Below are positions 32,221-60,151 of a stretch of DNA of 64,000 bases, one piece after another. The position numbers and the translations under genes were made by a program. Source of the DNA: Photobacterium leiognathi (GTDB taxonomy: Bacteria > Pseudomonadota > Gammaproteobacteria > Enterobacterales > Vibrionaceae); the NCBI RefSeq assembly GCF_030685535.1, contig NZ_CP131601.1, positions 682,001 to 746,000 on the forward strand, read 5' to 3'. The notes under the pieces are model-generated. The model did not search any database. It was not told the DNA's origin and was given only the letters and a program-made list of their open reading frames with translations. Numbering within the stretch: the stretch's first letter is position 1; every line of letters starts with the position of its first letter.

Positions 32221-33381
32221 ATGGAACAATACGATGTCATCGTTGCTGGTGGCGGCATGGTTGGCGCAGCAACAGCACTTGGCTTAGCAAAATTAGGGAT
32301 TGAGGTCGCAGTCTTAGAAGGTTTTGCTCCTCAGCCGTATACAGACTCACAGCCAATGGACTTGCGTGTTTCCGCAATATCACCTAACTCGGTTGCCTTA
32401 CTAGAGCGTTTAGGCGCTTGGGATGCTGTAAAACAGATGCGCTTATGCCCATTTAAGCGTCTGGAAACGTGGGAAAGCCCTGAGTGCCGAACACGTTTTA
32501 ATGCAGATGAAATGAACTTAGCGCAACTAGGCTACATCGTTGAAAACCGTGTATTACAGCTAGCGTTGTGGCAACAGTTCGAAAGCGCCGATAACTTAAC
32601 CTTGTTGTGTCCTGCAAAAATGGTATCAGCAATGCATACTGAAGGTGGCTATATTGTTGAGCTTGAAGATAAGCAAACATTACAGTGTCGATTATTAGTC
32701 GGCACAGACGGTGCTAATTCTCAAGTGCGCCAACAAGCCGGTATTGGTATTACAGCATGGGATTATCGCCAGCACTGTATGTTAATCAATGTAGAAACCG
32801 CCTTGCCGCAGCAAGACATTACTTGGCAGCAATTTACGCCAGTAGGTCCTCGTTCATTCTTACCTTTGCCAGGACACCAAGGCTCACTGGTTTGGTATGA
32901 CAGCCCAGAACGTATCAGACGCTTATCGCATATGACAGCCACTCAGCTTCATACTGAAATCTCAGCGGTTTTTCCTGATGAATTAGGTGAGTTTAAGGTG
33001 ATTAATCACGGTAGCTTCCCATTAACACGTCGCCATGCTCAAACTTACTATAAACCCAATGTGGTTTTGCTAGGAGATGCTGCTCACACCATTAATCCAT
33101 TAGCGGGACAAGGTGTGAATTTGGGCTTTAAAGATGTAGATGTACTACTGCAGGAAATAGAGGCTGCGGGAGAATTGTGGGCTGAAACTAAAGTGCTACA
33201 CAAGTACGAGCAACGTCGTCGCCCTGACAATCTTGTAATGCAAACGGGAATGGATTTTTTCTACGTTGCTTTTAGTAATAATTTAGCGCCAATGAAGTTT
33301 TTACGAAATGCAGGATTACGTATTGCCGATCATGCTGGTGTGATGAAAAAACAAGTGTTGAAGTATGCCATGGGTATTTAG
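32221..33381 (+). CDS. ubiF: Ubiquinone biosynthesis FAD monooxygenase UbiF
   Basis: A 386-residue flavoprotein hydroxylase of the UbiH/UbiF/UbiI family, closest to UbiF, which hydroxylates C6 of the demethoxy-quinone ring. GxGxxG dinucleotide fold in VAGGGMVGAATALG at the start, GTDGANSQVRQ near residue 160, and LLGDAAHTINPLAGQGVN near 280. As in E. coli, ubiF lies between miaB and the Met-Leu-Gln tRNA cluster. It ends at a strong terminator facing the tRNA array. Confidence 0.93.
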   Translation: MEQYDVIVAGGGMVGAATALGLAKLGIEVAVLEGFAPQPYTDSQPMDLRVSAISPNSVALLERLGAWDAVKQMRLCPFKRLETWESPECRTRFNADEMNLAQLGYIVENRVLQLALWQQFESADNLTLLCPAKMVSAMHTEGGYIVELEDKQTLQCRLLVGTDGANSQVRQQAGIGITAWDYRQHCMLINVETALPQQDITWQQFTPVGPRSFLPLPGHQGSLVWYDSPERIRRLSHMTATQLHTEISAVFPDELGEFKVINHGSFPLTRRHAQTYYKPNVVLLGDAAHTINPLAGQGVNLGFKDVDVLLQEIEAAGELWAETKVLHKYEQRRRPDNLVMQTGMDFFYVAFSNNLAPMKFLRNAGLRIADHAGVMKKQVLKYAMGI

Positions 33382-33409
33382 ATAACAATTATTGATAATT
33401 GAGATAGCA

Positions 33410-33442
33410 AAAAGCCGAGAGACATTGTCACTCGGCTTTTTA
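33410..33442 (+). terminator. Terminator of ubiF
   Basis: AAAAGCCGAG / CTCGGCTTTT 10-bp stem with an 11-nt loop and T run, 29 nt past the ubiF stop. Confidence 0.88.
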
Positions 33443-33480
33443 TTTATCTGGATATTATTCATTGTGAAATAATATTTAGC

Positions 33481-33511
33481 AGATAAAAGAAAACCCACTC
33501 AAAGAGTGGGT
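33481..33511 (-). terminator. Terminator of the Leu/Gln/Met tRNA operon
   Basis: ACCCACTC / GAGTGGGT stem with a 3-nt loop; on the minus strand it is followed by TTTCTTTTATCT. It lies 10 nt past the last tRNA. Confidence 0.85.
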
Positions 33512-33521
33512 CTCTAAATAA

Positions 33522-33606
33522 TGGTGCGGAAGGAGAGACTTGAACTCTCACACCTTGCGGCGCCAGAACCTAAATCTGGTGCGTCTACCAATTCCGCCAC
33601 TTCCGC
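33522..33606 (-). tRNA. tRNA-Leu(UAG), copy 1 (last in operon)
   Basis: 85 nt with encoded CCA; anticodon loop TTTAGGT, long variable arm with GCAA tetraloop, acceptor GCGGAAG/CTTCCGC. Same isoacceptor as E. coli leuW. Confidence 0.97.
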
Positions 33607-33639
33607 ATAATTGACTGCGATAGCAATCAATTTAAATAA

Positions 33640-33714
33640 TGGCAGGTCTACCTGGATTCGAACCAGGGAATGGCGGCATCAAAAGCCGCTGCCTTACCGC
33701 TTGGCGATAGACCT
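33640..33714 (-). tRNA. tRNA-Gln(UUG), copy 1
   Basis: 75 nt with encoded CCA; anticodon TTG in loop TTTTGAT; acceptor AGGTCTA/TAGACCT, discriminator G. Confidence 0.97.
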
Positions 33715-33755
33715 ACAGCGCTTGTTTATCACAAGACTTTTAAAACTAGAGAGAA

Positions 33756-33840
33756 TGGTGCGGAAGGAGAGACTTGAACTCTCACACCTTGCGGCGCCAG
33801 AACCTAAATCTGGTGCGTCTACCAATTCCGCCACTTCCGC
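33756..33840 (-). tRNA. tRNA-Leu(UAG), copy 2
   Basis: Identical to copy 1; separated by 81 nt from Leu copy 3, with a CAGTTA/TAACTG hairpin just before its 5' end. Confidence 0.97.
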
Positions 33841-33921
33841 ATATTGTCAGTTACAAGTAACTGTTGTTTCTCTAGTTGTATTAATCAAAACAGTAATTGG
33901 TAAAACTGAGTTGAAGAATAA

Positions 33922-34006
33922 TGGTGCGGAAGGAGAGACTTGAACTCTCACACCTTACGGCGCCAGAACCTAAATCTGGTGCGTCTACCAATTCCGCCAC
34001 TTCCGC
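33922..34006 (-). tRNA. tRNA-Leu(UAG), copy 3, variable-arm variant
   Basis: As copy 1 but the variable-arm tetraloop is GTAA instead of GCAA; both fit the GNRA pattern. Shared only with copy 11. Confidence 0.97.
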
Positions 34007-34039
34007 ATAATTGACTGCGATAGCAATCAATTTAAATAA

Positions 34040-34114
34040 TGGCAGGTCTACCTGGATTCGAACCAGGGAATGGCGGCATCAAAAGCCGCTGCCTTACCGC
34101 TTGGCGATAGACCT
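34040..34114 (-). tRNA. tRNA-Gln(UUG), copy 2
   Basis: Identical to Gln copy 1, 33 nt from Leu copy 3. Confidence 0.97.
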
Positions 34115-34155
34115 ACAGCGCTTGTTTATCACAAGACTTTTAAAACTAGAGAGAA

Positions 34156-34240
34156 TGGTGCGGAAGGAGAGACTTGAACTCTCACACCTTGCGGCGCCAG
34201 AACCTAAATCTGGTGCGTCTACCAATTCCGCCACTTCCGC
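34156..34240 (-). tRNA. tRNA-Leu(UAG), copy 4
   Basis: Identical to copy 1; follows Met copy 1 in the transcript after an 80-nt spacer. Confidence 0.97.
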
Positions 34241-34320
34241 ATATTGTCAGTTACAAGTAACTGTTGTCTCTAGTTGTATTATCAAAACAGTAATTGGTAA
34301 AAGCTGAGTTGAAGAATAAA

Positions 34321-34397
34321 TGGTGGCTACGACGGGATTCGAACCTGTGACCCCATCATTATGAGTGATGTGCTCTAACCAGCTGAGCTACGTAGCC
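34321..34397 (-). tRNA. tRNA-Met(CAU) elongator, copy 1
   Basis: 77 nt with encoded CCA; anticodon CAT; acceptor GGCTACG/CGTAGCC fully paired; nearly identical to E. coli metT, so an elongator. Confidence 0.97.
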
Positions 34398-34436
34398 AAC
34401 ACAGAATACTGACGTTTATCAATACTCTTTAAATAA

Positions 34437-34511
34437 TGGCAGGTCTACCTGGATTCGAACCAGGGAATGGCGGCATCAAAAGCCGCTGCCTTACCGCTTG
34501 GCGATAGACCT
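34437..34511 (-). tRNA. tRNA-Gln(UUG), copy 3
   Basis: Identical to Gln copy 1, here 39 nt upstream of Met copy 1 in the transcript. Confidence 0.97.
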
Positions 34512-34552
34512 ACAGCGCTTGTTTATCACAAGACTTTTAAAACTAGAGAGAA

Positions 34553-34637
34553 TGGTGCGGAAGGAGAGACTTGAACTCTCACACCTTGCGGCGCCAGAAC
34601 CTAAATCTGGTGCGTCTACCAATTCCGCCACTTCCGC
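34553..34637 (-). tRNA. tRNA-Leu(UAG), copy 5
   Basis: Identical to copy 1; 82-nt spacer to Leu copy 6. Confidence 0.97.
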
Positions 34638-34719
34638 ATATTGTCAGTTACAAGTAACTGTTGTTTCTCTAGTTGTATTAATCAAAACAGTAATTGGTAA
34701 AAGCTGAGTTGAAGAATAA

Positions 34720-34804
34720 TGGTGCGGAAGGAGAGACTTGAACTCTCACACCTTGCGGCGCCAGAACCTAAATCTGGTGCGTCTACCAATTCCGCCACTT
34801 CCGC
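34720..34804 (-). tRNA. tRNA-Leu(UAG), copy 6
   Basis: Identical to copy 1; occupies the place of the GTAA variant (copy 3) in its own repeat unit. Confidence 0.97.
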
Positions 34805-34837
34805 ATAATTGACTGCGATAGCAATCAATTTAAATAA

Positions 34838-34912
34838 TGGCAGGTCTACCTGGATTCGAACCAGGGAATGGCGGCATCAAAAGCCGCTGCCTTACCGCTT
34901 GGCGATAGACCT
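34838..34912 (-). tRNA. tRNA-Gln(UUG), copy 4
   Basis: Identical to Gln copy 1. Confidence 0.97.
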
Positions 34913-34953
34913 ACAGCGCTTGTTTATCACAAGACTTTTAAAACTAGAGAGAA

Positions 34954-35038
34954 TGGTGCGGAAGGAGAGACTTGAACTCTCACACCTTGCGGCGCCAGAA
35001 CCTAAATCTGGTGCGTCTACCAATTCCGCCACTTCCGC
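34954..35038 (-). tRNA. tRNA-Leu(UAG), copy 7
   Basis: Identical to copy 1; 798 bp from the equivalent Leu copy 4. Confidence 0.97.
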
Positions 35039-35118
35039 ATATTGTCAGTTACAAGTAACTGTTGTCTCTAGTTGTATTATCAAAACAGTAATTGGTAAAA
35101 TCTGAGTTGAAGAATAAA

Positions 35119-35195
35119 TGGTGGCTACGACGGGATTCGAACCTGTGACCCCATCATTATGAGTGATGTGCTCTAACCAGCTGAGCTACGAAGCC
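35119..35195 (-). tRNA. tRNA-Met(CAU) elongator, copy 2, acceptor-stem mismatch
   Basis: Reads GGCTTCG at the 5' end instead of GGCTACG, while the 3' strand is still CGTAGCC. This makes a U-U mismatch at pair 5-68. Otherwise identical to copy 1. It may be poorly processed or partly inactive. Confidence 0.93.
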
Positions 35196-35234
35196 AACAC
35201 AGAATACTGACGTTTATCAATACTCTTTAAATAA

Positions 35235-35309
35235 TGGCAGGTCTACCTGGATTCGAACCAGGGAATGGCGGCATCAAAAGCCGCTGCCTTACCGCTTGGC
35301 GATAGACCT
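35235..35309 (-). tRNA. tRNA-Gln(UUG), copy 5
   Basis: Identical to Gln copy 1. Confidence 0.97.
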
Positions 35310-35350
35310 ACAGCGCTTGTTTATCACAAGACTTTTAAAACTAGAGAGAA

Positions 35351-35435
35351 TGGTGCGGAAGGAGAGACTTGAACTCTCACACCTTGCGGCGCCAGAACCT
35401 AAATCTGGTGCGTCTACCAATTCCGCCACTTCCGC
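35351..35435 (-). tRNA. tRNA-Leu(UAG), copy 8
   Basis: Identical to copy 1; 798 bp from copy 5. Confidence 0.97.
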
Positions 35436-35516
35436 ATATTGTCAGTTACAAGTAACTGTTGTTTCTCTAGTTGTATTAATCAAAACAGTAATTGGTAAAA
35501 CTGAGTTGAAGAATAA

Positions 35517-35601
35517 TGGTGCGGAAGGAGAGACTTGAACTCTCACACCTTGCGGCGCCAGAACCTAAATCTGGTGCGTCTACCAATTCCGCCACTTCCG
35601 C
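35517..35601 (-). tRNA. tRNA-Leu(UAG), copy 9
   Basis: Identical to copy 1; 797 bp from copy 6. Confidence 0.97.
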
Positions 35602-35634
35602 ATAATTGACTGCGATAGCAATCAATTTAAATAA

Positions 35635-35709
35635 TGGCAGGTCTACCTGGATTCGAACCAGGGAATGGCGGCATCAAAAGCCGCTGCCTTACCGCTTGGC
35701 GATAGACCT
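35635..35709 (-). tRNA. tRNA-Gln(UUG), copy 6
   Basis: Identical to Gln copy 1; its spacer to Leu copy 10 carries one extra T. Confidence 0.97.
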
Positions 35710-35751
35710 ACAGCGCTTGTTTATTCACAAGACTTTTAAAACTAGAGAGAA

Positions 35752-35836
35752 TGGTGCGGAAGGAGAGACTTGAACTCTCACACCTTGCGGCGCCAGAACC
35801 TAAATCTGGTGCGTCTACCAATTCCGCCACTTCCGC
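35752..35836 (-). tRNA. tRNA-Leu(UAG), copy 10
   Basis: Identical to copy 1; the adjoining spacer hairpin is diverged (CAGCTA...TAACTG, one mismatch). Confidence 0.97.
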
Positions 35837-35916
35837 ATATTGTCAGCTACGAATAACTGTTGTCTCTAGTTGTATTTTCAAATCAGTAATTGGTAAAAGC
35901 TGATCTGAAGAATAAA

Positions 35917-35993
35917 TGGTGGCTACGACGGGATTCGAACCTGTGACCCCATCATTATGAGTGATGTGCTCTAACCAGCTGAGCTACGTAGCC
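35917..35993 (-). tRNA. tRNA-Met(CAU) elongator, copy 3
   Basis: Identical to Met copy 1; starts the first of the 798-bp units in transcription order. Confidence 0.97.
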
Positions 35994-36032
35994 AACACAG
36001 AATACTGACGTTTATCAATACTCTTTAAATAA

Positions 36033-36107
36033 TGGCAGGTCTACCTGGATTCGAACCAGGGAATGGCGGCATCAAAAGCCGCTGCCTTACCGCTTGGCGA
36101 TAGACCT
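36033..36107 (-). tRNA. tRNA-Gln(UUG), copy 7
   Basis: Identical to Gln copy 1, but with the second spacer type (37 nt with a perfect ATTCTCAA/TTGAGAAT hairpin) on its upstream side. Confidence 0.97.
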
Positions 36108-36144
36108 ACAGCGCTAAAATAGCGATTCTCAACTCTATTGAGAA

Positions 36145-36229
36145 TGGTGCGGAAGGAGAGACTTGAACTCTCACACCTTACGGCGCCAGAACCTAAATCT
36201 GGTGCGTCTACCAATTCCGCCACTTCCGC
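36145..36229 (-). tRNA. tRNA-Leu(UAG), copy 11, variable-arm variant
   Basis: Carries the GTAA tetraloop like copy 3; otherwise identical to copy 1. Confidence 0.97.
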
Positions 36230-36262
36230 ATAATTGACTGCGATAGCAATCAATTTAAATAA

Positions 36263-36337
36263 TGGCAGGTCTACCTGGATTCGAACCAGGGAATGGCGGC
36301 ATCAAAAGCCGCTGCCTTACCGCTTGGCGATAGACCT
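36263..36337 (-). tRNA. tRNA-Gln(UUG), copy 8
   Basis: Identical to Gln copy 1. Confidence 0.97.
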
Positions 36338-36378
36338 ACAGCGCTTGTTTATCACAAGACTTTTAAAACTAGAGAGAA

Positions 36379-36463
36379 TGGTGCGGAAGGAGAGACTTGA
36401 ACTCTCACACCTTGCGGCGCCAGAACCTAAATCTGGTGCGTCTACCAATTCCGCCACTTCCGC
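36379..36463 (-). tRNA. tRNA-Leu(UAG), copy 12
   Basis: Identical to copy 1; spacer hairpin has loop TGAA in place of CAAG with the same stem. Confidence 0.97.
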
Positions 36464-36544
36464 ATATTATCAGTTATGAATAACTGTTGTCTCTAGTTGT
36501 ATTAATCAAAACAGTAATTGGTAAAAGCTGAGTTGAAGAATAAA

Positions 36545-36621
36545 TGGTGGCTACGACGGGATTCGAACCTGTGACCCCATCATTATGAGTGATGTGCTCT
36601 AACCAGCTGAGCTACGTAGCC
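36545..36621 (-). tRNA. tRNA-Met(CAU) elongator, copy 4
   Basis: Identical to Met copy 1; 628 bp from copy 3, so outside the 798-bp periodicity. Confidence 0.97.
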
Positions 36622-36660
36622 AACACAGAATACTGACGTTTATCAATACTCTTTAAATAA

Positions 36661-36735
36661 TGGCAGGTCTACCTGGATTCGAACCAGGGAATGGCGGCAT
36701 CAAAAGCCGCTGCCTTACCGCTTGGCGATAGACCT
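36661..36735 (-). tRNA. tRNA-Gln(UUG), copy 9
   Basis: Identical to Gln copy 1; shares the second spacer type with copy 7. Confidence 0.97.
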
Positions 36736-36772
36736 ACAGCGCTAAAATAGCGATTCTCAACTCTATTGAGAA

Positions 36773-36857
36773 TGGTGCGGAAGGAGAGACTTGAACTCTC
36801 ACACCTTGCGGCGCCAGAACCTAAATCTGGTGCGTCTACCAATTCCGCCACTTCCGC
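36773..36857 (-). tRNA. tRNA-Leu(UAG), copy 13
   Basis: Identical to copy 1; its 49-nt upstream spacer has a different hairpin (ATCAGT/ACTGAT). Confidence 0.97.
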
Positions 36858-36906
36858 ATATTATCAGTATAATAAACTGATATTCAATTTTACGTTGAAA
36901 ATTGAA

Positions 36907-36983
36907 TGGTGGCTACGACGGGATTCGAACCTGTGACCCCATCATTATGAGTGATGTGCTCTAACCAACTGAGCTACGTAGCC
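36907..36983 (-). tRNA. tRNA-Met(CAU) elongator, copy 5 (first in operon)
   Basis: As Met copy 1 except for one D-loop base (AGTTGG instead of AGCTGG), which is the E. coli form and perhaps the ancestral copy. Confidence 0.97.
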
Positions 36984-37039
36984 ATTTTCCTATTTATCAC
37001 CGTGGCTCTTAGTGAGTCACTGTGTCGGGAACGGGGCGC

Positions 37040-37068
37040 ATTATGCTCATACCAGCGAAAACCGTCAA
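37040..37068 (-). promoter_or_regulatory. Promoter of the tRNA array, stringent-type discriminator
   Basis: On the minus strand: TTGACG, 17-nt spacer, CATAAT, then GCGCCCCG directly after the -10 box. An A-rich stretch (CAAAAAAAC) lies upstream of the -35 and could act as an UP element. The GC-rich discriminator is the known hallmark of ppGpp/DksA-repressed stable-RNA promoters. No other promoter is evident inside the array. Confidence 0.8.
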
Positions 37069-37247
37069 CAGTTTTTTTGAAAATATCGGGAAAATCCGTT
37101 TGTTCGTCGGATATTTGGACGATGTGTGCGAATGACAAACTGAAATCGACTTTGTCAGCCTAAAATATTGATAAATGTGAGGTGCATCAATTAATTCTAG
37201 TGACGGTAGAATTACGAAGCGTTGGTTGTTAAATACAAAATAAGCCA

Positions 37248-37257
37248 GCTAAAGAGC
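37248..37257 (+). repeat. Target-site duplication, left copy
   Basis: GCTAAAGAGC directly flanks the left IS end; the same 10 bp follow the right end. IS50 itself makes 9-bp duplications; one of the ten bases may be chance. Confidence 0.88.
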
Positions 37258-37268
37258 CTGTCTCTTGA

Positions 37269-38660
37269 TCACAAGTCATTGTGTTCAAGAGACTTAGCTA
37301 GTTCATATCCTTCAAGGATGGTTTGTAACCTAAACCATCCTTGCCATAATGTCTTTACAGAAGCGCGACCCGTCCGCTTGGTATCTTTCCAACCACCTAA
37401 CCGTGCAATACTTTTGTAAGCCCACGATATATTTGGTGCTTCTTTGGGCAGCTTTTTCTTCTCCAATTTTAACCACATAAGCTTCCACGCTTTACCTTTT
37501 AACACCCGTTCACAACAGCTACTAGATAACTCTTTAGATTCGTTCATAAATCTTAACTGGAGTAAACGAGTAGCAATAAATGCCAAAATAACACTGAGCC
37601 TTTCTAAGTTATCTTTACTTTGCATTCTCAGTTGTTCAACTTGCGTGCCTTCACTTTTCCAAACCTTGTGAAAATCTTCTATCAGCCAACGACGCTCATA
37701 ATAACTGACGATGTTAAGTGCTTCCTCTTTGTTCGTTACAGGCTCTGATGTCAGTAAATGCCATGCGAGCTTGTCGTCACTCTCACCTTGCTCTATACAT
37801 CCAACATAGTAGAGAGAGATATTATCGAACTCTTTTTTATTAGCGGGAGACTTAAGTGTCACGGGAGCATATTTGATGTCTAGATGAGCCGTGCGGGACT
37901 TACGACCGCCTTTTTGCGGTATTTTTAGCTCTTTGCTTCCTGCTGATAACAACTTGGAAGCGTAGTCATAAAGACGATTATCATGCTCCTCGATACAGCG
38001 ACTTTGCATTGAGCGAACGATAAATCGTTGTTGTTGCTCGTGCTTGTAAGTGAGGTACTCGAATAAATCGGCTTCTCTATCACATACAGAAATAACCTCT
38101 GACATTTTCTCGCCTAGTCGCTCTGCAACATGGCGAGATGCTTGTTCCCATTTATAACTTTCTTTTTCTTTGTATGGTCGAGTTGCATGCTGGTGTCTTT
38201 GACCACGTTTTTCAATATCTCGGGTCCAGCGTTGTTGTTCGATTAAACCAACTACAGTGTGAGTTTCGGGAGCAAAAAGCAACGTTGAATGAACGAACAT
38301 TGCTCGGTGTCGATTACCTTGATTGGAATGCCCGAGTGTATCTTGTATGCTGTGATGTGAGTAACTTAGAGAAGTGGTATCTTCCAATGCAAGCAGTGTT
38401 TGTTGTTCAAAAGCTTCTTGTGCTGTGACATAGAATCCAGCTTCTGCAATATCTTCTGCTTTGATTTGGTCATTACGAATAAAGCGATAAGCCCCTTCCA
38501 TATCGGCTGGGGAGATGATGAGTTTTGAGATAGGGATACCAGGTTGTTCAGCCAGAGAGGTAGCTAGAGCAACGAGTCTTTGAGTGCGTCTTGGGTCATT
38601 AAGATCGGCTTGACCGAATTGTTTTTGAGCCCAAAGAGTTGGTTCTATATAGGTCATCAT
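37269..38660 (-). CDS. IS4-family (Tn5-like) DDE transposase
   Basis: A 463-residue transposase, close to the 476 of Tn5. The catalytic residues can be placed at Asp94 (LALEDTTSL), Asp194 (VCDREADLF) and Glu328 in the YREK signature YERRWLIEDFHKVWK (Y-x2-R-x3-E-x6-K). All agree with Tn5 spacing (97, 188, 326). AAGGAT precedes two adjacent ATGs at 38660 and 38657; I take the first. Two GATC sites at 38685 and 38690 lie just upstream, as in the Dam-controlled IS50 promoter. No frameshift or stop. Confidence 0.94.
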   Translation of the reverse strand: MMTYIEPTLWAQKQFGQADLNDPRRTQRLVALATSLAEQPGIPISKLIISPADMEGAYRFIRNDQIKAEDIAEAGFYVTAQEAFEQQTLLALEDTTSLSYSHHSIQDTLGHSNQGNRHRAMFVHSTLLFAPETHTVVGLIEQQRWTRDIEKRGQRHQHATRPYKEKESYKWEQASRHVAERLGEKMSEVISVCDREADLFEYLTYKHEQQQRFIVRSMQSRCIEEHDNRLYDYASKLLSAGSKELKIPQKGGRKSRTAHLDIKYAPVTLKSPANKKEFDNISLYYVGCIEQGESDDKLAWHLLTSEPVTNKEEALNIVSYYERRWLIEDFHKVWKSEGTQVEQLRMQSKDNLERLSVILAFIATRLLQLRFMNESKELSSSCCERVLKGKAWKLMWLKLEKKKLPKEAPNISWAYKSIARLGGWKDTKRTGRASVKTLWQGWFRLQTILEGYELAKSLEHNDL

Positions 38661-38717
38661 AATCATCCTTATCATTGCTTAGATGATCAGATCATGAAAC
38701 ATAAAATTAGTTCAAAA

Positions 38718-38745
38718 AAATCCCCAAGCATTGGCTTAGGGATTT
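38718..38745 (-). terminator. Terminator inside the right IS end, upstream of the transposase
   Basis: On the minus strand AAATCCCTAAGC pairs with GCTTGGGGATTT (12 bp, one G-U) over a CAAT loop and is followed by seven T. It lies between the IS end and the transposase start, so it should stop transcripts entering from ychF. Confidence 0.85.
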
Positions 38746-38760
38746 GTGTATAAGAGACAG

Positions 38761-38770
38761 GCTAAAGAGC
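38761..38770 (+). repeat. Target-site duplication, right copy
   Basis: GCTAAAGAGC, identical to 37248-37257. Joining the flanks after removing the IS and one copy rebuilds ATAAGCCAGCT-AAAG-AGCTGGCTTAT, an 11-bp stem followed on the minus strand by TTTTGT: the original ychF terminator. Confidence 0.88.
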
Positions 38771-38809
38771 TGGCTTATGAATGTTTATATGCTTTTTACA
38801 GGTGAAAAA

Positions 38810-39901
38810 TTACACGTTGAAGCGGAAGTGAACAACGTCACCATCTTTAACGATGTATTCTTTACCTTCTAGACGCCATTTGCCTGCTTCTTTAGCACCA
38901 GCTTCACCACCACAGTTGATGTAGTCGTCGTAACCGATAACTTCAGCACGGATGAAACCTTTTTCGAAGTCTGTGTGGATCACACCAGCCGCTTTTGGTG
39001 CTGTTGCACCTACAGGGATAGTCCATGCACGAACTTCTTTCACACCAGCAGTGAAGTAAGTTTGCAGTGAAAGTAGCTCGTAGCCAGAACGGATCACGCG
39101 GTTTAGACCCGGCTCTTCGATACCAAGATCAGCTAGGAACTCTTCACGATCAGCATCATCAAGCTCTGCAATTTCAGACTCGATTGCCGCACATACAGGA
39201 ACAACAACGGCATTTTCTTGTGCCGCACGTTCCATTACTGCGTCTAGGAATGGGTTATTTTCAAAACCATCTTCGTTTACGTTAGCAATGTACATGGTTG
39301 GCTTAAGCGTTAGGAAGTGCAGGTAATCAATTGCTACTTTTTCTTCTTTAGTTAGCTCAAGCGCACGTAGCATGCCACCCTCAGTTAGGTGAGGTAGCAT
39401 TTTCTCTAGTACTTTGATTTCGAATTTAGCATCGTTGTCACCACCTTTAGCACGCTTAGCTAAACGCTGAATAGCACGCTCACAAGTGTCTAAGTCAGCC
39501 ATTGCTAGCTCAAGGTTGATGATATCCATGTCTTCTAGCGGATCGATACGACCAGCAACGTGTACGATATTGTCGTTTTCGAAACAACGAACAACGTGAC
39601 CAATTGCATCTGTTTCACGGATGTTAGCTAGGAATTTGTTACCTAGACCTTCACCTTTAGATGCACCAGCAACTAGGCCCGCGATATCAACAAATTCCAT
39701 TGTCGTTGGCAGAATACGTTCTGGTTTAACGAAAACTGCTAGAGCATCCATACGAGGATCTGGAACAGGTACTACACCTGTGTTTGGTTCAATAGTACAG
39801 AACGGGAAGTTTGCTGCTTCAATGCCCGCTTTAGTTAAGGCGTTGAATAGAGTTGACTTACCAACGTTTGGTAGACCTACGATACCGCATTTAAAACCCA
39901 T
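38810..39901 (-). CDS. ychF: Redox-regulated ATPase YchF (OLA1 family)
   Basis: A 363-residue Obg-related P-loop protein that hydrolyses ATP and binds ribosomes. G1 motif [14 protein letters not shown] at residues 6-19, a coiled-coil insertion (about 130-200) and a C-terminal TGS domain (about 280-363). YchF represses the oxidative stress response in E. coli. Downstream of pth as usual. Its terminator has been split by the IS. Confidence 0.95.
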
Positions 39902-59601: not shown

Positions 59602-59678
<77 letters not shown>

Positions 59679-59720
59679 CTATTTCAAGTAGTGGTATAAA
59701 AATACCGTTACTTACAAAGT

Positions 59721-59797
<77 letters not shown>

Positions 59798-59838
59798 CTA
59801 TTTCAAGTAGTGGTATGAAAATATCGTTACTTACAAGT

Positions 59839-59915
<77 letters not shown>

Positions 59916-59956
59916 CTATTTCAAGTAGTGGTATAAAAATACCGTTACTTACAAGT

Positions 59957-60033
<77 letters not shown>

Positions 60034-60074
60034 CTATTTCAAGTGGTGGTATGAAAATATCGTTACTTACAAGT

Positions 60075-60151
<77 letters not shown>

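Follow-up and report, generated by a model that had tools for sequence, protein, structure and literature searches.

In Escherichia coli, an operon of seven tRNA genes, metT-leuW-glnU-glnW-metU-glnV-glnX, is said to have been described by Nakajima et al. in 1981; in strain K-12 the set (glnX-glnV-metU-glnW-glnU-leuW-metT) lies between ubiF and asnB and directly adjoins ubiF, with miaB and ybeZ beyond the latter. The locus reported here is an array of 27 tRNA genes for Leu, Gln, and Met in Photobacterium leiognathi, at 33522..36983 on the minus strand of the window (the whole stretch of 64,000 nucleotides that was analyzed, located at C3:682001-746000 in a three-contig genome of 4,750,881 bases), the array lying inside a contig of 3.27 Mb. 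The array also adjoins ubiF, toward which it is transcribed, and opens with metT, leuW, and a gln gene. This same place beside ubiF, the same promoter core, and the same first genes make the array orthologous to metT-leuW-gln of E. coli; it represents the metT (metT-leuW-glnUVWX) operon in its Vibrionaceae form. We read it as a dosage-tuned tRNA operon whose size has changed through unequal recombination and whose proportions selection maintains, and we give this reading a probability of roughly 80%.

Likeness to the E. coli operon comprises the ubiF-side position, the order of the first three genes, the promoter core, and the anticodons of the trio, and the seven E. coli tRNA genes do stand at the equivalent place, as a preliminary description of this DNA had it. 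The E. coli operon consists of 1 Leu, 4 Gln (two with CUG), and 2 Met genes, whereas 27 genes, 13 of them Leu, are present here, again of the isotypes Met, Leu, and Gln only. The Gln-CUG genes glnV and glnX have no counterpart here, where all 9 Gln genes are Gln-UUG, a difference of content that we do not regard as defining. On the promoter side, asnB is found in E. coli, whereas an insertion sequence (IS) and, beyond it, ychF and pth are found here. In Vibrio cholerae, tRNA operon I, reportedly described by Ghatak et al. in 2005 as a tandem operon with Leu and Gln genes that classical strains lack, is a likely precedent for copy-number variation; it reportedly has ~16 genes, fewer than here, and is not known to hold a 798-bp three-unit repeat of the kind described below. 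Giroux and co-workers are said to have described, in 1988/1989, a repeated Pro/His tRNA cluster in Photobacterium phosphoreum, in an operon of gamma-proteobacteria; this is also a tandem tRNA amplification and in the same genus, but it concerns a different operon (Arg-His-Leu-Pro). Precedents for amplified tRNA operons of this kind exist. In the available passages of a study of tRNA arrays in Firmicutes, mycobacteria, and phages (PMC5966550), an array unit is defined as at least 20 genes at a density of at least 2 per kb. The locus here has that size and density (27 genes, 7.8 per kb). The arrays of that study are also found on phages and plasmids and carry many isotypes, whereas the array here is an amplified native operon of three isotypes and lacks the typical many-isotype content or link to mobile elements. 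The available passages of a study of P. profundum (PMC1239915) contain nothing on tRNA arrays, and no mention of a conserved Leu:Gln:Met proportion turned up in the open-licence literature searched.

Within these 3,462 bp, ARAGORN called 27 tRNA genes and no more, all on the minus strand, namely 13 Leu-UAG, 9 Gln-UUG, and 5 Met-CAU, and cmscan with Rfam returned the identical set, all above the gathering score. In transcript order, the genes are M L Q M L Q L Q M L Q L L Q M L Q L L Q M L Q L L Q L. The leading portion comprises Met at the metT position (36907..36983), Leu-UAG at the leuW position (36773..36857), Gln-UUG (36661..36735), Met (36545..36621), Leu (36379..36463), Gln (36263..36337), Leu (36145..36229), and Gln (36033..36107). 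It is followed by three higher-order units of the order M-L-Q-L-L-Q. Unit 1 (35196..35993, 798 bp) holds Met (35917..35993), Leu (35752..35836), Gln (35635..35709), Leu (35517..35601), Leu (35351..35435), and Gln (35235..35309); unit 2 (34398..35195, 798 bp) holds Met (35119..35195), Leu (34954..35038), Gln (34838..34912), Leu (34720..34804), Leu (34553..34637), and Gln (34437..34511); and unit 3 (33607..34397, 791 bp) holds Met (34321..34397), Leu (34156..34240), Gln (34040..34114), Leu (33922..34006), Leu (33756..33840), and Gln (33640..33714), after which a final Leu gene (33522..33606) stands where Met would come. On the transcribed strand, the units start at 35993, 35195, and 34397, so that the 798-bp spacing is exact and occurs twice. 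The array is built on a module Leu-Gln-X of ~400 bp, in which X is Met or Leu and alternation of X yields the 798-bp unit; Tandem Repeats Finder reported a 400-bp period across 33517-36232 (87% matches). The first two units are 98.6% identical, the third is 97.0 and 97.6% identical to these, and each carries its own differences at several sites. Gln genes were identical in 9/9 copies and Leu genes in 11/13, the remaining two (36145..36229 and 33922..34006) having one change in common, and the Met genes comprised three identical copies and two single-base variants. Gene counts, near identity of the copies, and the 798-bp repeat had all been put forward in the preliminary description and were borne out in every detail. 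In the Met gene at 35119-35195, a single changed base of the acceptor stem breaks a pair, a change unique among the 87 Met genes of 21 arrays; the copy may be decaying, or the change may reflect an error in the sequence.

A single conserved promoter with a GC-rich discriminator and a single terminator appear to bracket the 3.5-kb array. The candidate promoter, found by pattern scan and alignment at 37040..37068 on the minus strand, reads TTGACG-17-CATAAT followed by the discriminator (GCGCCCCGTTCCC). Its core, TTGACG-17-CATAATGCGCCCCG, lies upstream of the first Met gene, as the same core does upstream of E. coli metT, and was present in 20 of 21 aligned arrays (our own and those of 20 relatives), the remaining one being a run of N at this place. 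Past the final gene, a hairpin followed by a T run resembles an intrinsic terminator (33490..33514, minus strand) and is the sole such site within 33300-37300; since shuffled sequences averaged 3.2 sites, its support comes from its place and its conservation (a similar hairpin, judged by eye, in 17 of 21 arrays), not from the count. Internal promoters were considered and set aside, as minus-strand matches within the array reached 9 of 12 consensus bases (10 of 12 for the leader promoter) and repeated plus-strand matches point the wrong way; weak starts inside the array may still exist. The array would be transcribed as one unit, into one long precursor that is processed to tRNAs. Growth-rate control is a property of promoters with GC-rich discriminators and may apply to this one.

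Whole-genome direct queries placed all Gln genes found (9/9) and all elongator Met genes found (5/5, at 99 to 100% identity) in the array, and all 13 Leu-UAG genes found lie there as well. Judged by sequence, seven of the remaining Met-CAU genes are initiators and the eighth resembles an Ile CAU tRNA. Neither direct queries of the whole genome nor the reading of tRNA-bearing stretches found Leu-CAG or Gln-CUG. Within this census, no gene for tRNA-Gln, elongator tRNA-Met, or tRNA-Leu-UAG was found in this genome outside the array. ARAGORN called 188 tRNA genes in the tRNA-bearing stretches located. A TPsiC-to-CCA pattern matched 203 times genome-wide (14 times for a reversed-pattern control), with 187 matches in the stretches read (184 in tRNA genes) and 16 elsewhere; as ~12 of the latter are expected by chance, a small number of further tRNA genes may have escaped the census. 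One match, near C1:33151 (L173), has the same sequence as a match that adjoins a tRNA cluster called on that chromosome; ARAGORN calls no gene at the former, and it is possibly a tRNA fragment.

Twelve clusters of at least 5 genes contain 128 of the 188 tRNA genes found, among them arrays of Gly/fMet (17 genes, C3:2989503-2991434, L169), Thr/Asn/Phe (16 genes, C3:450362-452555, L184), Leu/Cys/Gly (14 genes, C3:1929022-1930569, L161), Ser/Arg (13 genes, C3:533997-535688, L185), and Val (6 genes). The view that one specific trio, rather than tRNAs in general, had been amplified does not hold, as tandem amplification in this genome covers many tRNA species.

At the ubiF site, 3 to 26 such genes were found in 54 of the 56 relatives read. 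A DNA query with the first three genes matched in 52/52 genomes of the genus and 150/150 sampled genomes of the family, our own counted; since matches were weak in some genomes, the query shows related tRNA genes and not always an array. Among 35 stretches of relatives, ychF was present in 35 and ubiF in 32, the two flanking the array in 20/20 Photobacterium and 12/15 other Vibrionaceae (ychF only in the remaining three). In a further 21 near-finished genomes (at most 7 contigs, a class with 36 members in other genera), Met, Leu, and Gln genes stood beside ychF in 20, one of which (G101) showed a single Met gene with runs of N, and ubiF was in the stretch in 19. Array size ranged from 10 to 26 genes in the 20 genus arrays read (two with N gaps) and from 14 to 23 in 15 arrays of other genera; a single array of 5 to 19 genes was found in 15 of the remaining 21 near-finished genomes. 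Four of the latter (G059, G079, G083, and G097; loci L281-L286, L273, and L274) had divided sets, with 3 or 7 genes at the ubiF site and six more Leu/Gln/Met genes plus Arg clustered elsewhere in the order Gln-Arg(ACG)-Leu-Gln-Met-Leu-Leu, and one genome (G053) had only four genes, away from ubiF. Named loci and G-numbered genomes overlap as samples and are not independent. Such arrays being found throughout the genus and in many other Vibrionaceae, the amplification is not local to this genome, as had been supposed, and only the three 798-bp units remain plausible as a recent, lineage-specific step.

The proportion of CUN-Leu (UAG plus CAG), Gln, and Met genes was nearly constant across the longer of these arrays and lay close to what ribosomal genes demand in codons. 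In 43 near-finished one-locus arrays of 5 to 27 genes, the respective fractions were 0.477 (standard deviation [sd], 0.038), 0.321 (0.039), and 0.201 (0.019), and in the 37 of these with 13 to 27 genes they were 0.481 (0.024), 0.314 (0.019), and 0.205 (0.012). When the genes of the four two-locus genomes were summed, the fractions were 0.44 to 0.46, 0.31 to 0.33, and 0.22 to 0.23. Twenty-one whole arrays from named, mostly draft contigs (5 to 24 genes) had means of 0.496, 0.279, and 0.224. Two arrays with runs of N (G006 and G028) were excluded from these counts. We compared the scatter with that produced by simulated neutral duplication and deletion between like genes, using several assumed ancestors and block sizes and 2 to 20 events; because gene orders recur, only distinct orders were set against the simulations. 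None of the 200 sets run in any of the 60 settings matched all three deviations, and for Met no simulated set in any setting was as constant as observed. In earlier simulations with 26 orders (from 13 genomes of the genus and 15 of other genera, omitting G043 and G104, which repeat the orders of G040 and G098), a match occurred in at most 1% of 200 sets across 45 settings. The conservation of the proportion leads us to infer selection, which would keep Leu:Gln:Met near codon demand.

Copies are homogenized within genomes. Spacers of the same type had a mean identity of 0.61 to 0.79 within genomes and 0.41 to 0.51 between them (at most 4 copies per genome), and in our own genome Q-M spacers were identical among copies, as were Q-L spacers. 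Stem variants that extend through a genome or clade and seem to be paired also occur in the tRNA genes, for instance in the acceptor and anticodon stems of Gln. The likeness of spacers within genomes and the stem variants are the outcome that unequal crossing over and gene conversion would leave. Together with the near-identical genes and units, this supports tandem duplication with homogenization. Gene number would have been raised by unequal recombination between identical genes and spacers, a process supported by the within-genome similarity of copies and one that would also homogenize them, and 27 copies would raise supply for fast growth.

Codon demand was assessed in 29 ribosomal-protein and elongation-factor genes (highly expressed set), with open reading frames (ORFs) picked by script, and in a general set of 390 ORFs. 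In the highly expressed set, CUN, CAA plus CAG, and internal AUG codons numbered 327:174:141, which is 13.8:7.3:5.9 per 27, next to 13:9:5 genes in the array; the general ORFs gave 11.7:10.2:5.0. Of the Leu codons, 172 of 393 were CUA in the highly expressed set versus 2768 of 16755 in general genes. With CUA thus the preferred Leu codon of highly expressed genes, the suggested link of the array to CUN-Leu decoding is supported. In E. coli, the product of CmoB makes a wobble modification that lets Leu-UAG read beyond CUA. A CmoB gene is present here (485.5 bits against a cut-off of 275), and by analogy with E. coli the single Leu-UAG tRNA, so modified, may read most CUN codons.

Several results weigh against the reading of the array as tuned dosage. 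By chi-square, 13:9:5 fits the demand of general genes (P = 0.86) as well as that of highly expressed genes (P = 0.75), and 9:9:9 is not rejected either (P = 0.17); as both gene sets fit, the attempt to tell highly expressed from general demand failed, and this genome alone cannot show tuning. In the comparison of codon use with tRNA dosage, 13:9:5 thus agrees with demand but does not discriminate. Across 19 amino acids, copies per amino acid correlated weakly with demand (Spearman 0.46, P = 0.046, for highly expressed genes; 0.55, P = 0.014, for general genes). The six arrays with fewer than 13 genes scatter more widely (Leu, 0.33 to 0.60; Gln, 0.20 to 0.44; Met, 0.11 to 0.22), the 21 draft-contig arrays had sds of 0.051, 0.045, and 0.043, and one draft array (G019) had Met in only 2 of 18 genes. 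The simulations assumed a star phylogeny and chosen ancestors, and related arrays are not independent. Finally, 15 promoter-like sites were found in the region versus 6.6 in shuffles, most of them on the opposite strand, so that the pattern scan alone proves little.

One alternative is neutral recombination, by which unequal crossing over alone would have shaped the arrays and the proportion would be passive, passed on by blocks already near the ratio and by shared ancestry. Whole blocks such as M-L-Q-L-L-Q do duplicate, the start M-L-Q-M-L-Q is common to many arrays and one whole order to several, short arrays are more variable, and the single-genome fits leave other ratios unrejected. Simulated scatter was nonetheless larger than that seen (Met sd, 0.020 to 0.108 after 2 to 20 events versus 0.012 in arrays of at least 13 genes), also in runs with blocks of at least 5 genes, two-locus genomes keep the ratio in their sum, and the genes stay homogenized; we consider purely neutral change unlikely, though it is the alternative to be taken most seriously. 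Somewhat less probable is a recent amplification particular to this species and independent of how large the array is in other lineages. In the nearest relatives whose array is complete (G003 and G002), 13 genes and a single M-L-Q-L-L-Q unit are present, for which reason the three-unit 798-bp repeat is probably a lineage-specific step, and the three units here are 97.0 to 98.6% identical. Against this, homogenization makes old copies look young, and 24 to 27 genes were found in 8 of the 13 near-finished Photobacterium genomes free of N gaps, our own counted.

A wrong repeat number introduced by assembly is improbable. Draft assemblies break at such repeats (among named Photobacterium contigs, 21 of 35 end within 600 nt of ubiF or the last tRNA gene), and N runs occur within the array in two scaffolds. 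The array here, however, is well inside its contig, near-finished genomes of relatives have 24 to 26 genes, and the distinct changes in each unit indicate that the assembler did not simply copy one of them; a nanopore assembly of P. leiognathi JS01 is annotated with 205 tRNA genes (PMC5754488). Acquisition of the array by horizontal transfer, as with those of phages, plasmids, or integrative elements, deserves next to no credence. An IS of the Tn5/IS50 kind does lie ~0.2 kb upstream of the promoter, but a Tn5-type transposase was found in 0 of the 35 searched stretches of relatives, only three isotypes are present, and synteny contradicts it, the site, first genes, and promoter core being common to E. 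coli and Photobacterium.

Beyond the dosage-tuned operon that we favor, a wider proposal can be put forward tentatively and at somewhat less than even odds, namely that the array is a self-adjusting dosage device. Recombination would keep changing its length and order; selection would tune length to growth rate and hold CUN-Leu:Gln:Met at demand even across two loci; and the Leu isoacceptor content of the array, either UAG by itself or UAG together with CAG, would set or follow the preferred Leu codon (CUA versus CUG) of highly expressed genes in each lineage. Arrays of six relatives (G008, G016, G034, G040, G043, and G044; L143, L145, L149, L150, L151, and L160) contain both Leu-CAG and Leu-UAG. 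The ribosomal cluster was read in 18 genomes. In 13 of these, only Leu-UAG was seen in the array (gapped arrays G006 and G028 included), and the CUA share of CUN was 0.38 to 0.52 and that of CUG 0.13 to 0.26; in the five with Leu-CAG-bearing arrays (G008, G016, G040, G043, and G044), CUA was 0.06 to 0.21 and CUG 0.60 to 0.78, so that CUG, not CUA, is their preferred CUN codon. Leu-CAG genes beyond the array were checked in our own genome only. Leu-CAG share correlated with CUG share (Spearman 0.79, 18 genomes), a correlation that is only suggestive because relatedness was uncorrected and third-position GC gave nearly as high a coefficient (0.78). In one pair of genomes, the CUA/CUG switch is not explained by GC alone, as G045 has third-position GC of 0.42, an array without Leu-CAG, and CUG at 0.25, whereas G008 has 0.44, Leu-CAG, and CUG at 0.60. 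An origin of Leu-CAG by anticodon mutation of an array Leu-UAG gene was rejected, as Leu-CAG looks like a different gene; the commonest Leu-CAG of the relatives' arrays is 84 to 85% identical to our own Leu-UAG copies.

The E. coli order argX-hisR-leuT-proM includes a Leu-CAG gene. At C3:44820-45379 (L182), an Arg-His-Pro-His-Pro operon without a Leu-CAG gene was observed, which fits the absence of Leu-CAG in this genome.

The arrays form a natural series for testing selection on tRNA gene dosage, with 3 to 27 genes in changing order at one orthologous site. Its strengths are the near-constant proportion in long arrays and the fact that no other gene was found here for the three tRNA species, and through it dosage can be tested directly against codon demand, as can joint change of isoacceptor and preferred codon. 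Work on this series should heed the frequent breaks of Photobacterium drafts at this locus. In the passages available, tandem duplication in Pseudomonas fluorescens provides an experimental precedent for selection on tRNA copy number (PMC7661048), and it is presented as an established idea that selection for translational efficiency goes with fewer tRNA species in more copies (PMC4041420, citing Rocha).

The layout around the array comprises miaB, a transglycosylase gene, and the convergent conserved neighbor ubiF (32221..33381, plus strand), the order being followed on the promoter side by the IS, ychF (38810..39901, minus strand), and pth. UbiF shares 97% identity with its Photobacterium lucens counterpart, and a BLAST search of ubiF against plasmids gave distant matches only. 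The IS spans 37240-38778, with the transposase at 37269-38675 and inverted ends of 38 nt (79% complementary). Elsewhere in the window, at 59602-60151 on the plus strand, five tRNA-Pro-UGG genes stand in tandem with a 118-bp period (97% matches).

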